Source: Ignavibacteria bacterium
GTDB lineage: Bacteria > Bacteroidota > Ignavibacteria > Tepidaquicellales > OLB5
Direction of reading: 5' to 3'
Assembly: GCA_030835025.1 (NCBI GenBank)
Contig: JAUQWS010000071.1
Span: forward strand, 84,365-148,364
Length of the DNA: 64,000 nt
Shown here: in pieces, positions 28,658-52,031 of the stretch
How positions within the stretch are numbered: position 1 is the first letter of the stretch
Layout: every line of letters starts with the position of its first letter
Made by a program: the position numbers and the translations under genes
The notes under the pieces: model-generated
The model's database searches: none
What the model was told of the DNA's origin: nothing
The model's input: only the letters and a program-made list of their open reading frames with translations

Positions 28658-29173
28658 ATGTCACTATCATCATTCAACTTTAAGCAGTGGATAGAAGAAA
28701 ACCGCCATCTCCTTAAACCGCCGGTGGGGAATAAGTGCATGGTCGATGGCGATCTGATAGTAATGGTCGTCGGGGGTCCCAATGCCAGGAAAGATTATCA
28801 CTTCGAAGACGGCGCGGAGTTCTTTTACCAGATCGAGGGAGATATAGTTGTAAAAGTCATAGAAGACGGCAAGCCGCATGATGTGCATATTAAAGAGGGA
28901 GAAATGTTCTACCTTCCCCCCAATACTCCGCACTCGCCGCAAAGGCCTGCAAATACTATCGGTCTTGTGATTGAGCGCAAACGCGATGAAAAAGAGTTTG
29001 ATGCTTTCCAGTGGTACTGCGAAAATTGCGGCAATAAGCTCTACGAAGAATTTGTTAAGCTTGATAACATTGTGACCCAGCTTCCTCCTATATTTGAGAG
29101 ATTCTGGAATGACCTTGATAAGCGCACGTGCAAGCAATGCGGAACAGTAATGCAGCCGCCGGAGAAAAAATAA
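28658..29173 (+). CDS. nbaC: 3-hydroxyanthranilate 3,4-dioxygenase
   Basis: This 171-residue cupin opens the ring of 3-hydroxyanthranilate to 2-amino-3-carboxymuconate semialdehyde (ACMS). The catalytic iron ligands are His48 and Glu54 (KDYHFEDGAEFFYQIEGD) and His92 (LPPNTPHSPQRPA). The C-terminus has two CxxC pairs (CENCG, Cys121/124, and CKQCG, Cys158/161), the rubredoxin-like second iron site of bacterial HAO enzymes. A strong ribosome-binding site, AAGGAG, lies 10 bases before the ATG. It is the first gene of the kynurenine-degradation cluster. A repeat-flanked pseudogene separates it from the ACMS decarboxylase-like gene. Confidence 0.95.
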   Translation: MSLSSFNFKQWIEENRHLLKPPVGNKCMVDGDLIVMVVGGPNARKDYHFEDGAEFFYQIEGDIVVKVIEDGKPHDVHIKEGEMFYLPPNTPHSPQRPANTIGLVIERKRDEKEFDAFQWYCENCGNKLYEEFVKLDNIVTQLPPIFERFWNDLDKRTCKQCGTVMQPPEKK

Positions 29174-29175
29174 AT

Positions 29176-29214
29176 TACGAATTACGAATTACGAAATAGG
29201 AATTACGAAATAAT
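29176..29214. repeat. Left end of four-helix-bundle unit 1 (tandem AATTACG)
   Basis: AATTACGAATTACGAATTACG followed by AAATAGGAATTACGAAATA is a tandem 7-base motif right after the dioxygenase stop codon. GGAATTACGAAATA (29199-29212) is inverted relative to TAATTCGTAATTCC at 29572-29585 with one mismatch. Confidence 0.75.
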
Positions 29215-29220
29215 CGTTGA

Positions 29221-29574
29221 ATGAAAGACAATATAATTCTTGAAAAATCATACAAGTTTGCAGTCAGGATAATTAAGCTTTACCTGTTTTTAAAAGAAAA
29301 GAAAGAATTTGAGCTGGGAAACCAGATATTGAGAAGCGGAACTTCAATTGGTTCAAATGTTGAATAAGCTGTCGGAGGATATTCAAGAAAAGATTTTTCC
29401 GCAAAGCTTGGTATAGCATACAGAGAAGCAAGAGAAACAAGATTCCGATTAAGGTTACTGAATGATACGGGTTTTATAGATAAAAAACTCTTTGATTCGT
29501 TGTATGAGGATTGTGAAGAGATATTGAAAATTATCGGGACGATTCAAAAAACACTAAAGAAGAATAATTCCTAA
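29221..29574 (+). pseudogene. S23-type four-helix-bundle protein gene with in-frame stop
   Basis: The frame from ATG 29221 reads MKDNIILEKSYKFAVRIIKL... to a TAA at 29365 (codon 49), then continues without any other defect (AVGGYSRKDFSAKLGIAYRE...) to a TAA at 29572. The family has SNVEEA at this point, so a single GAA-to-TAA change explains the stop. With it repaired the product would be about 117 residues, homologous to the intact protein at 51658-52014. The family (PF05635/TIGR02436) was first found in open frames within 23S rRNA intervening sequences, and the Avd protein of diversity-generating retroelements shares the fold. Either it is a fresh pseudogene, or the base is a sequencing error. 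Confidence 0.85.
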
Positions 29575-29590
29575 TTCGTAATTCCAAATT
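29566..29590. repeat. Right end of four-helix-bundle unit 1
   Basis: TAATTCGTAATTCC (29572-29585) is the inverted copy of GGAATTACGAAATA at the left end with one mismatch. The pseudogene's stop codon is its first three bases. The next gene starts 9 bases later. Confidence 0.72.
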
Positions 29591-29593
29591 GAT

Positions 29594-30049
29594 ATGGATC
29601 TAACTATAGTGACCCTCGAGCCCAAACCCGCCATTGCAATAAGAGACACTTGCACAGCAGATGAGCTTGGAGATAAGTTCGGTGAGATTTACCGGGAAAT
29701 AGGTGTATACATGAAGGTGAATTCAGTCAATATGACCGGTCCACCGTTCGGGATATATCATGCATACTCGGCTGATAGTATTGACCTGGAAGCAGGTTAT
29801 CCGGCTGACAGTATCCCGCCCGAAGGTTCAAGAATTCACTCTATCTCAACCTATGATGGAAAAGCCGCAATGTCCGAATTCCGGGGTCATTATGACGGAC
29901 TGAGTGCCGCATGGAAAGAATTTGCAGAACTTGTGGATAATGCCGGGTATAAACTGGCTGGTCCCTGTTTTGAAGTTTACATTACAGATCCGTTTAAAGA
30001 ACCGGATACTGATAAGTGGATTACGGAACTTTACACACCCATTGAATGA
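29594..30049 (+). CDS. GyrI-like small-molecule-binding domain protein
   Basis: This 151-residue protein is a stand-alone GyrI-like/AraC effector-binding domain: it begins MDLTIVTLEPKPAIAIRDTC, has GPPFGIYHAYSADSIDLEAG and AAMSEFRGHYDGLSAAWKEF, and ends FEVYITDPFKEPDTDKWITE. These SHV-fold domains bind small hydrophobic or cationic ligands. The gene overlaps the decarboxylase gene by ATGA, so it may bind a pathway intermediate; that is an inference from position. Confidence 0.85.
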   Translation: MDLTIVTLEPKPAIAIRDTCTADELGDKFGEIYREIGVYMKVNSVNMTGPPFGIYHAYSADSIDLEAGYPADSIPPEGSRIHSISTYDGKAAMSEFRGHYDGLSAAWKEFAELVDNAGYKLAGPCFEVYITDPFKEPDTDKWITELYTPIE

Positions 30050-31159: not shown

Positions 31160-31975
31160 ATGCGGCTTGAATTTGTAGTAAATAATAAAGATTACATTAT
31201 AGATAGCACTGAACCGCTTGATATTTCAATTCCACTGAATTTTGGCGGTGAACAGCCGAATATTTACGACGCTCAAAAGGCAAGCTCAAAAGCCTGTGAG
31301 ATAGGCACGTTTGTTGGTGATACCAGAAGAGGCGGAAGCTGTAATTTTGAGGAGTACACACTTATTGCTCACTGCAACGGCACACATACGGAGTGTGTTG
31401 GCCATATCACAGATGAGAGAATTTCGATCCGCAACGTTCTGAATGATTCTTTTATCCCGGCTGTTTTGATCACAGTTGAGCCTGAAAAAGCTTTTGACAC
31501 ACCTGACACCTACTTTTCCAACAAGAATGAAAGCGATTTTCTTATCACGCAATTGAATTTAAGCGAGGCTTTGCGCTTCAAAGAGGTTGGATTTCTTGAG
31601 GGACTTATCATAAGGACTCTCCCGAATGACGTTTCAAAAAAATCACGGAGATATATGGATAACCTCCCGCCGTTTTTATCACGCCAGGCCATGGAGTATA
31701 TTGTTAAACTCGGAGTCAAACATCTTCTCCTTGATATCCCCTCGGTTGACCGCGCATTTGATGAGGGCAAACTTACCGCACATCACCTGTACTGGGGTGT
31801 TGAAGAAGGAAGCCATAAGATTGATCCTCGTGACTACTCCCTCAAAACTATTACAGAAATGATCTATGTACCGGATATCGTTAAAGACGGACTTTATCTG
31901 CTGAATCTGCAGATCGCACCATTCCAAAGCGATGCGTCGCCTTCAAGGCCGCTTCTATATGCAATTAACAATTAG
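31160..31975 (+). CDS. kynB: Cyclase family protein, probable kynurenine formamidase
   Basis: This 271-residue protein has the metal-binding motif LIAHCNGTHTECVGH (His71, His76, Glu78 and His82), the HxGTHxD/E signature of the cyclase family that includes bacterial kynurenine formamidase (KynB), and ends with a typical substrate-side motif LNLQIAPFQSDASPSRPLLY. In this cluster, hydrolysis of N-formylkynurenine to kynurenine is the obvious role, although the protein is longer than classical KynB (about 210 residues) and could act on a related amide. TAAATTTG at 31148-31155 may be a -7 box. The stop codon lies in a short tandem repeat. Confidence 0.8.
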   Translation: MRLEFVVNNKDYIIDSTEPLDISIPLNFGGEQPNIYDAQKASSKACEIGTFVGDTRRGGSCNFEEYTLIAHCNGTHTECVGHITDERISIRNVLNDSFIPAVLITVEPEKAFDTPDTYFSNKNESDFLITQLNLSEALRFKEVGFLEGLIIRTLPNDVSKKSRRYMDNLPPFLSRQAMEYIVKLGVKHLLLDIPSVDRAFDEGKLTAHHLYWGVEEGSHKIDPRDYSLKTITEMIYVPDIVKDGLYLLNLQIAPFQSDASPSRPLLYAINN

Positions 31976-31985
31976 CAATTAACAA
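31961..31985. repeat. Tandem GCAATTAACAATTA repeat at gene end
   Basis: GCAATTAACAATTA is repeated as GCAATTAACAAA directly afterwards. The repeat covers the last residues (AINN) and stop codon of the cyclase gene, like the other AT-rich tandem repeats at gene ends in this window. Confidence 0.55.
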
Positions 31986-32035
31986 ACTCTTAGATACAAT
32001 AGTTAAATAAAATAATTAAGGAACAATATTATAAA

Positions 32036-50301: not shown

Positions 50302-51627
50302 ATGGAAGTTGTAACAACGATACTTTACTTTTTAATTACGATAGTAATACTGGTATTTGTTCATGAGTTCGGGCATTTTGCTGCGGCAAAGCTGTGCAAA
50401 ATGAGGGTGGATAAGTTCTACCTGTTTTTCGATTTCTTTAACCTGAAAATATTCAAGTTCGTAAAAGGTGATACCGAGTACGGGCTTGGTGTATTTCCTC
50501 TTGGCGGTTATGTTAAGGTTGCAGGTATGATAGATGAGAGCATGGATAAAGAGTTTATCAACCAGCCTCCCCAGCCGTGGGAATTCCGCTCAAAGCCTGT
50601 TTGGCAGAGAATGTTCGTAATCACCGCCGGTGTAATTATGAATACGCTTCTGGCATTTGCTATATTCTATACCATCAATCTTGCCCAGGGCAAGACAAGA
50701 ATGGAAACCAGTACGATAGGTTATGTTGCGGAGAATTCACTTGCTTCCAAATTCGGAATTATGCCGGGTGATAAGATAATTTCCGTTAACGGAAAAAAAG
50801 TTGAGTTCTGGGATGAAGTGCGCGGTGATATTTTCATCGAAAGCATGGGTGAGGACGTTACACTTCGCACATCAAGAAGCGGTGTTGAAAAGGATATTTT
50901 CTTATCGAAAGATAACCTTAGAGACCTGAATGAAAGAACACTTGGGATATTCCCTGAAAAGATGGTCCCTGAAATTCAGCAGGTTGAATCAACAAGGCCA
51001 GCAGGTAAGCTTGGTCTGCAAAAGGGTGATGTTATCACTGAAGCAAACGGTATTGGCATTGTTCACTCACAGCATTTTGTTGATGTTATTAAAAGCAGCC
51101 CGGGCAAAGATATTTCTGTCAAATGGATGCGCGGTTCAAATGAAATGACAGGTACAGTTAAACCTGATGCCGACAGTACTATCGGAATTGCCATTGGTAC
51201 GTATGCCGGAACTGTAAAGACTGTTAACTATAATGTTATCTCAGCGATTCCACAGGGATTCAACGACCTGTGGCATTACGGTGTTGTGCTGTTCGTAAAA
51301 TCAATGTGGAAGATCATCAAGGGCGATATAGCTTTTTCAAAGGCTGTTGGCGGACCCGTAAAGATCGCGCAGTATGCAGGGCAGTCTGCTGAAGGCGGTC
51401 TGCTTTCATTCCTCGGCTTTATGGCAATGCTTTCTATCACTCTTGCAATTATAAACATACTGCCGTTCCCTGCGCTTGATGGCGGGCACTTTATGTTCCT
51501 GCTTTATGAGGGTATTTTCAGAAAACCGGTTTCTCATAAAATACAGATAGTCGTACAGAATGTAGGATTCCTTTTGCTTATGGCGTTTATGGCATTCGTT
51601 GTCTATAACGATATAATTCATATATAG
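50302..51627 (+). CDS. rseP: RIP metalloprotease RseP (site-2 protease)
   Basis: This 441-residue intramembrane zinc protease has HEFGHFAAAKLC (His21, Glu22 and His25) in the first membrane segment, two PDZ domains (about 125-200, NSLASKFGIMPGDKIISVNG; about 210-290, KLGLQKGDVITEANGIGI) and the third zinc ligand in FPALDGGHFMFLLYEGIF. It typically cleaves anti-sigma factors or signal-peptide remnants. AAAGGAG lies upstream of the ATG. The stop codon TAG is immediately followed by the left end of a repeat-flanked unit containing the four-helix-bundle gene. Confidence 0.95.
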   Translation: MEVVTTILYFLITIVILVFVHEFGHFAAAKLCKMRVDKFYLFFDFFNLKIFKFVKGDTEYGLGVFPLGGYVKVAGMIDESMDKEFINQPPQPWEFRSKPVWQRMFVITAGVIMNTLLAFAIFYTINLAQGKTRMETSTIGYVAENSLASKFGIMPGDKIISVNGKKVEFWDEVRGDIFIESMGEDVTLRTSRSGVEKDIFLSKDNLRDLNERTLGIFPEKMVPEIQQVESTRPAGKLGLQKGDVITEANGIGIVHSQHFVDVIKSSPGKDISVKWMRGSNEMTGTVKPDADSTIGIAIGTYAGTVKTVNYNVISAIPQGFNDLWHYGVVLFVKSMWKIIKGDIAFSKAVGGPVKIAQYAGQSAEGGLLSFLGFMAMLSITLAIINILPFPALDGGHFMFLLYEGIFRKPVSHKIQIVVQNVGFLLLMAFMAFVVYNDIIHI

Positions 51628-52031
51628 TGAATTTGTGATTTTGCGATTTGGTGATTTATGAATGCCCAAGAGCTAAGAGACAGGACAAAGAACTTTGCAT
51701 TACGAATAATAAGGTTATTTAAGGCCCTTCCAAAAAATGTAGAATCACAGGTTATTGGCAAACAGCTTCTAAGGTCAGCACTTTCCGTAGCAGCCAATTA
51801 CCGTGCTGCCTGCAGGGCAAGATCCCGCCGGGAGTTCATCTCCAAAATTTCAATTGTAGTTGAAGAAGCAGACGAGGTACTTTGCTGGCTTGAAATGCTC
51901 TCCGATGCCGGAATAGTTACTGAAAAAAGGCTGCAGAATATTTCGACAGAAGCTCTTGAGATTCTCAAAATAATGGCTTCATCCAGAAAAACCACTGCAT
52001 CACCCAATCACTAATTCACAATTCACAAATT
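51628..52031 (+). mobile_element. Candidate repeat-ended unit 2 carrying a four-helix-bundle gene
   Basis: The left end (51628-51657, TGAATTTGTGATTTTGCGAT followed by TTGGTGATTT) and the right end (about 52002-52031) are imperfect inverted copies: read on the minus strand, the right end is CAATTTGTGAATTGTGAATT then AGTGATTGGGTG. AATTTGTGA (51630-51638) is exactly inverted at 52023-52031. The unit begins at the base after the rseP stop codon and its right end supplies the TTG start of serB-serA. Mobility is an inference. Confidence 0.55.
51658..52014 (+). CDS. S23-type four-helix-bundle protein
   Basis: This 118-residue all-helical protein begins MNAQELRDRTKNFALRIIRL. It is homologous to the pseudogene at 29221 (FALRIIRLFKAL against FAVRIIKLYLFL; QLLRSALSVAANYR against QILRSGTSIGSNVE; SRREFISKISIVVEEADEVL). 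The family (PF05635/TIGR02436) was first described from 23S rRNA intervening sequences and includes Avd of diversity-generating retroelements; such proteins form pentameric barrels and bind nucleic acids. No reverse transcriptase or template repeat is nearby. The stop codon lies in the right-hand repeat. Confidence 0.88.
   Translation: MNAQELRDRTKNFALRIIRLFKALPKNVESQVIGKQLLRSALSVAANYRAACRARSRREFISKISIVVEEADEVLCWLEMLSDAGIVTEKRLQNISTEALEILKIMASSRKTTASPNH

Follow-up and report, generated by a model that had tools for sequence, protein, structure and literature searches.

S23-family genes between inverted heptamer arrays: a probable family of small intervening-sequence-like elements lying mostly outside rRNA

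Genes of the S23/IVP family ('four helix bundle protein') are common, and the protein has so far no assigned role. The 64,000-nucleotide stretch of Ignavibacteria DNA analysed here, which we call the window, carries two such genes, each closely bracketed by short tandem repeats that are inverted on one side relative to the other. The locus raises the question of whether an S23 gene and its flanking repeats form an element of their own, like the intervening sequences (IVSs) of 23S rRNA but placed between protein-coding genes. A preliminary description, made from the letters of the window, had suggested this. In agreement with it, both genes matched PF05635 (Table 1), and the host genome (G000) carries five PF05635 genes.

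Table 1. Coordinates of the two S23 units and of a solitary array in the window.
Feature	Position	Strand	Description
Unit 1, left array	51628..51657	+	TGAATTTGTGATTTTGCGATTTGGTGATTT; 8-nt period, GTGATTTT-like; begins directly after the rseP stop codon
Unit 1, S23/IVP gene	51658..52014	+	118 aa; PF05635 (68.7 bits); closest solved structure 2rld
Unit 1, right array	51999..52031	+	ATCACCCAATCACTAATTCACAATTCACAAATT; inverted copy of the left array
Unit 2, left array	29171..29212	+	(AATTACG)n-like, 7-nt period; shares bases with the dioxygenase stop codon
Unit 2, S23/IVP gene	29221..29574	+	PF05635 (95.3 bits); broken by TAA at 29365-29367
Unit 2, right array	29565..29590	+	TAATTCCTAATTCGTAATTCCAAATT; TAATTCG/TAATTCC, inverted relative to the left array; S23 stop codon inside
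Solo array	31960..31986	+	CAATTAACAATTAGCAATTAACAA; 3′ end of a cyclase-like ORF, without S23 gene; separate from units 1 and 2

Unit 1 (51628-52031) lies between rseP, which ends at 51627, and a SerB-SerA-like gene; unit 2 (29171-29590) lies between a dioxygenase gene ending at 29173 and a GyrI-like gene starting with ATG at 29594. Both units begin at the stop codon of one neighbour and end close to the start of the next, and in both the S23 stop codon falls inside the right array, all of which had been noticed beforehand. The right array of unit 1 contains, in addition, the TTG start codon of the following gene (52030). Complementarity of the ends is illustrated by AATTTGTGA at 51630 and its complement TCACAAATT at 52023 in unit 1, and by the arms GGAATTACGAAATA and TAATTCGTAATTCC of unit 2, which agree at 13/14 positions; the arms of the two units pair at 83-95%. 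In the second gene an interruption of the ORF had been missed: the in-frame TAA is codon 49, where relatives have GAA, and the gene is to be read as either a pseudogene or a sequence error. The word of the solo array is that of S23 elements found at the cinA site of related genomes (compare L046 and L252), and this array is probably a gene-less fossil.

The generality of the inverted ends was assessed by local alignment of each left flank against the reverse complement of the right flank, using a fixed window of 160-200 nt and a simple ORF control. In a sample in which many genomes are MAGs and related loci are not independent, a score of at least 14 was reached by 75% of 198 S23 loci, compared with 3.7% of 188 other ORFs drawn from the window and from the same loci as the S23 genes. 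Within the window, identical scoring gave 18.5 and 14.5 for the two units, and among 43 other ORFs one reached 16.0 and the rest did not exceed 11.5. In a separate comparison within one genus (51 usable loci, 13 genomes), the median score of a unit's own two flanks was 19.5 versus 9.0 for flanks paired from different sites; 46/51 loci lay above the 95th percentile of this null and 38/51 above the 99th, and the corresponding count in direct orientation was 3/51. The arms have a median length of 31 nt, with a best period of 7 in 120 of 149 elements and of 8 in 19. S23 genes were present in 45/61 genomes sampled in the phylum.

Array types among these units include the AATTACG type and the GTGAAATA type, and other S23 subfamilies bear other words, some of them GC-rich. 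The short tandem inverted ends of the preliminary description are thus borne out, and its 'AT-rich' is not a general property. Cyanobacterial S23 genes sit within STRR-like arrays (for example GGGAGTC, GTGCTGA and GGGGGAT), and arrays accompany plasmid-borne S23 genes in Nostoc sp. ATCC 53789 (CAAGTCG), Dolichospermum (TAATTCG) and Euhalothece (ACTGGTC). On plasmids of Anabaena cylindrica and Nostoc (L368, L369), an S23 gene with heptamer arrays is found between cas2 and cas1. A search of viral contigs for a near-perfect AATTACG-type unit gave no match, the strict pattern being one that would miss degenerate ends. These results show that an S23 gene between two inverted arrays is an S23-specific architecture, widespread over many bacterial phyla.

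One way to account for this arrangement is that heptamer arrays form a repeat class of their own and that S23 genes just happen to stand between two such arrays, for instance because both settle in the same permissive operon gaps. Solo arrays without S23 do occur, and heptamer repeats have been described in which no S23 gene was noticed (PMC4679880). The two arrays of one S23 gene nevertheless match each other, in inverted rather than direct orientation, and other genes seldom have such ends. The words themselves bear on the point as well. Eighty relatives of the S23 protein of genome G002 were picked by protein patterns alone, from about 15 phyla (among them Cyanobacteriota, Planctomycetota, Hydrogenedentota, Marinimicrobia, Desulfobacterota, KSB1, Nitrospirota, Chloroflexota, Parcubacteria and Bacteroidota), and the majority bear inverted arrays of AATTACG or near variants. 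The exact word occurred at 54/76 usable loci of these relatives, compared with 5/122 other S23 loci and 3.4% of shuffles, and its orientation relative to the S23 gene is constant in the subfamily. In a genome-wide count that covered AATTACGx3 only, the 61 genomes together held three such arrays, two of which belonged to S23 units. A word that tracks the S23 subfamily over phyla with fixed polarity, and that is so rare elsewhere, speaks against independent repeats, and we consider that explanation very unlikely.

Over all loci, array similarity rose with S23 protein identity (Mantel-type rho 0.39, 0/300 permutations; 19,327 pairs with non-homologous flanks), an association carried mainly by the AATTACG subfamily. 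Outside this subfamily there was no overall correlation between protein and word (rho -0.01); among pairs at least 50% identical, arrays were shared in 9.3% of cases versus 3.5% with permuted labels (0/2000). The 7-8 nt word thus tends to go along with the S23 subfamily, and the specificity is strong for one subfamily only. At the znuC-znuB junction, two S23 subfamilies with different words were seen in different species (L024 versus L023, L031 and L034), which suggests that this junction has been used recurrently by S23 units.

Comparison of orthologous junctions within one genus revealed filled, empty and decayed states. At livH, six species have a complete unit in the gap, and in four species the stop and start codons overlap or are at most a few nt apart. 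The dioxygenase site is empty in G012, where it reads TAATG, and filled in G002. At rseP, the window species alone was seen to carry a unit: the spacers read in eight relatives (L075, L077-L080, L082, L083 and L085) hold no S23, and a PF05635 search of the remaining congeners listed no S23 gene at rseP. In the window species the unit took the place of about 70 bp that included the ATG of the next gene, and for this reason that gene now starts with a TTG supplied by the right array. In the same eight relatives the rseP spacer holds a conserved hairpin, TGACCAATT..AATTGGTCATTTTTT, with a T run between it and the SerB-SerA-like fusion; this hairpin, which the window species no longer has, resembles a terminator or attenuator. 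The S23 gene at rseP is at most 64% identical to every other sampled copy, so that no recent source of unit 1 is known. The preliminary description had named in advance two outcomes that would count against it, flanks of other family members without inverted ends, and the same gene at the same place in related genomes with unrelated flanks and no empty sites; both comparisons were run, inverted ends and empty sites (at rseP, livH and the dioxygenase gene) were found, and the idea survived.

Decay takes several forms. Solo left arrays are present at cinA in three species, both arms are kept at livF with the S23 gene gone (L261, L259), and at carA (L284) the gene is reduced to about 14 codons. 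At another locus of the host genome (L374; G000:C23, about 44807), an AATTACG array runs in frame within a Sua5/YrdC-like gene (residues LITNYELRIKNK), and downstream two CAAATA-type arrays, inverted to each other, enclose no gene. Other small repeats, such as CACAGACATTCTTGTCTGTG..CAGGCAGGAATGCCTGTG and AACCCCGAAGGGGTG hairpins, occupy the same operon gaps at L248, L250, L251 and L290-L292.

A single genome, G135, offered two copies for comparison. In its RND operon, the adaptor and pump genes are separated by one unit, an arrangement shared with G136 and G137, and a second unit follows the pump gene directly, at a position that is empty in G137. The copies are 93% identical over 436 bp; their 3′ halves are nearly identical and their 5′ parts more diverged, which makes a conversion tract between them likely. 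The second copy bears a few bases of the flank of the first site (ATGAA), and the gene that follows it lacks its 5′ end. As far as the letters tell, imprecise, deletion-prone insertion and local duplication with deletion would both fit, and the case could be the latter. No target-site duplication was visible by eye at the rseP, livH, dioxygenase or RND sites, and neither a mechanism of transposition nor an enzyme that would mobilise the unit came to light. An insertion event was never directly observed; the cassette outside rRNA proposed in the preliminary description is supported, and its mobility is read from presence and absence, decay remnants and this one two-copy genome. Taken together, that S23 units spread as whole units is well supported.

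Measured from the upstream stop codon, arrays start at a median distance of -1 nt, and at 113/159 sites both neighbours are co-oriented with the unit; short operon gaps account for part of this placement. S23 genes at orthologous sites showed dN/dS values of 0.01-0.19, indicating purifying selection and hence a function of the protein that is selected in vertical descent. Simple selfish spread would not predict as much: many copies are of long standing, have been passed on vertically and are kept by purifying selection, a persistence that suggests a host role beyond the element model.

Such a setting would also fit a gene resident in its operon whose arms pair in the mRNA to form a stem that is cut by RNase III or another nuclease, so that the unit acts as an RNA insulator. 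In predicted minimum-free-energy folds the arms do pair with each other (z -1.39 and -2.29). IVSs of rRNA are excised by RNase III (PMC4990558), and both the co-orientation and the purifying selection are in keeping with a resident gene. Nevertheless, mismatches within the arms showed no excess of G-U over A-C (126:128), leaving selection on an RNA stem unsupported; RNA pairing is thus seemingly not what keeps the arms matched. Pairing alone would leave the tandem 7-nt period and the cross-phylum word unexplained, and empty and gene-less sites exist. We regard an RNA insulator as unlikely. The match of the ends looks like identity at the DNA level rather than a selected RNA stem, even though RNA copies of the arms are able to pair. 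There was no significant sign that the two ends continue to be homogenised: at orthologous sites, a unit's own left-right match was not significantly better than the match across species (p 0.24).

The unit encodes no recognisable enzyme, a transposase included, its S23 protein being a relative of PDB 2rld. The machinery might then come in trans, with the S23 unit travelling like a SINE: a reverse transcriptase (RT) of the diversity-generating retroelement or group II type would copy its RNA, or a Y1 transposase encoded elsewhere would move its DNA. The likeness of PF05635 to Avd, the accessory protein of diversity-generating retroelements (PMC10053308), would suit such a scheme, and co-orientation and siting at stop codons could reflect an RNA intermediate. 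Against it, six S23-rich genomes (G038, G050, G066, G047, G041 and G016; 9-16 copies) are without any RT, Y1 is absent from G041, G054 and G013 (9, 8 and 6 copies, respectively), and PF01797 is wholly missing from some genomes with 5-9 copies. A present-day requirement for RT, and likewise for Y1/RAYT, is rejected on these counts. A past or rare enzyme source in trans may have existed; retro-mobility in trans as the general explanation is improbable.

All in all, we favour, with a probability of roughly 0.6, the reading that the window units belong to a family of IVS-like S23 elements of about 0.35-0.5 kb, located mostly outside rRNA and bounded by inverted arrays of 7-8 nt words that tend to be characteristic of the subfamily. 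Such a unit would spread whole into intergenic spots, chiefly right after a stop codon in a co-oriented operon, and its insertion would be imprecise and able to delete target DNA. Since no transposase is encoded, joining to the target DNA would fall to host functions, presumably recombination or repair, and the S23 protein may bind its cognate arrays, marking the ends or drawing them together. Copies would then decay through gene loss into solo arrays like the orphan heptamer repeats of cyanobacteria and other bacteria. In its fullest form the proposal is a novel, minimal and transposase-free mobile element in which a 13-kDa four-helix-bundle protein reads subfamily heptamers, host replication or repair copies the unit to stop/start junctions, decay products feed the orphan heptamers, and the rRNA IVS is a special case; this version is tentative, and we give it somewhat less than even odds.

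Leptospira carries a 23S rRNA IVS with an S23 ORF. That of Coxiella burnetii combines an S23 ORF, a 28-bp inverted-repeat stem and GACAGAT tandem heptamers 5′ of the ORF, whose copy number differs among strains; its ORF has been described as decaying and unexpressed, earlier authors suggested that IVSs derive from mobile elements, and a Xanthomonas member of the family is described as a homopentamer of four-helix bundles (all PMC4990558). The units described here share with 23S rRNA IVSs the S23/IVP ORF, a length of about 0.43 kb, complementary ends and tandem heptamers. They differ in that the window units lie between protein genes, the end words vary by subfamily and, unlike in Coxiella, the protein is under purifying selection. 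No conserved 23S motif was found at loci L001-L295. S23 units are probably kin to rRNA IVSs, yet they lie outside the rRNA location by which IVSs are defined; by analogy, the Coxiella IVS looks like the same kind of element placed in 23S rRNA.

Diversity-generating retroelements have in Avd a protein of the same family or fold (PMC10053308), but the window units have neither an RT gene nor room for one. Classical DNA transposons and insertion sequences differ in that only the S23 gene lies inside the unit and no target-site duplication accompanies it. REPtrons (REP/RAYT) are closer in layout, with a small protein gene, inverted short repeats and solo repeats elsewhere, the gene being a Y1 transposase rather than PF05635 and the repeats REP hairpins rather than tandem heptamers.

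Cyanobacterial STRRs, known from the literature of the 1990s, are tandem heptamer repeats. MacGregor described TAACTGA heptamers within operons, sought a binding protein and considered a mobile source (PMC4679880). S23 arrays resemble both in their tandem 7-nt words, their intergenic or intra-operon location, their presence in many lineages and the discussion of a mobile origin, and differ in that two of them, inverted to each other, enclose a gene; TAACTGA was not among the words seen in S23 arrays. In the part of the literature that we searched, heptamer repeats were never paired with an S23 gene, and the description of orphan repeats names no binding partner for them (PMC4679880). If S23 and heptamers belong together, the S23 protein is a candidate for the factor that reads such repeats, an origin is gained for rRNA intervening sequences, and a family of tiny transposase-free elements becomes visible in many phyla.
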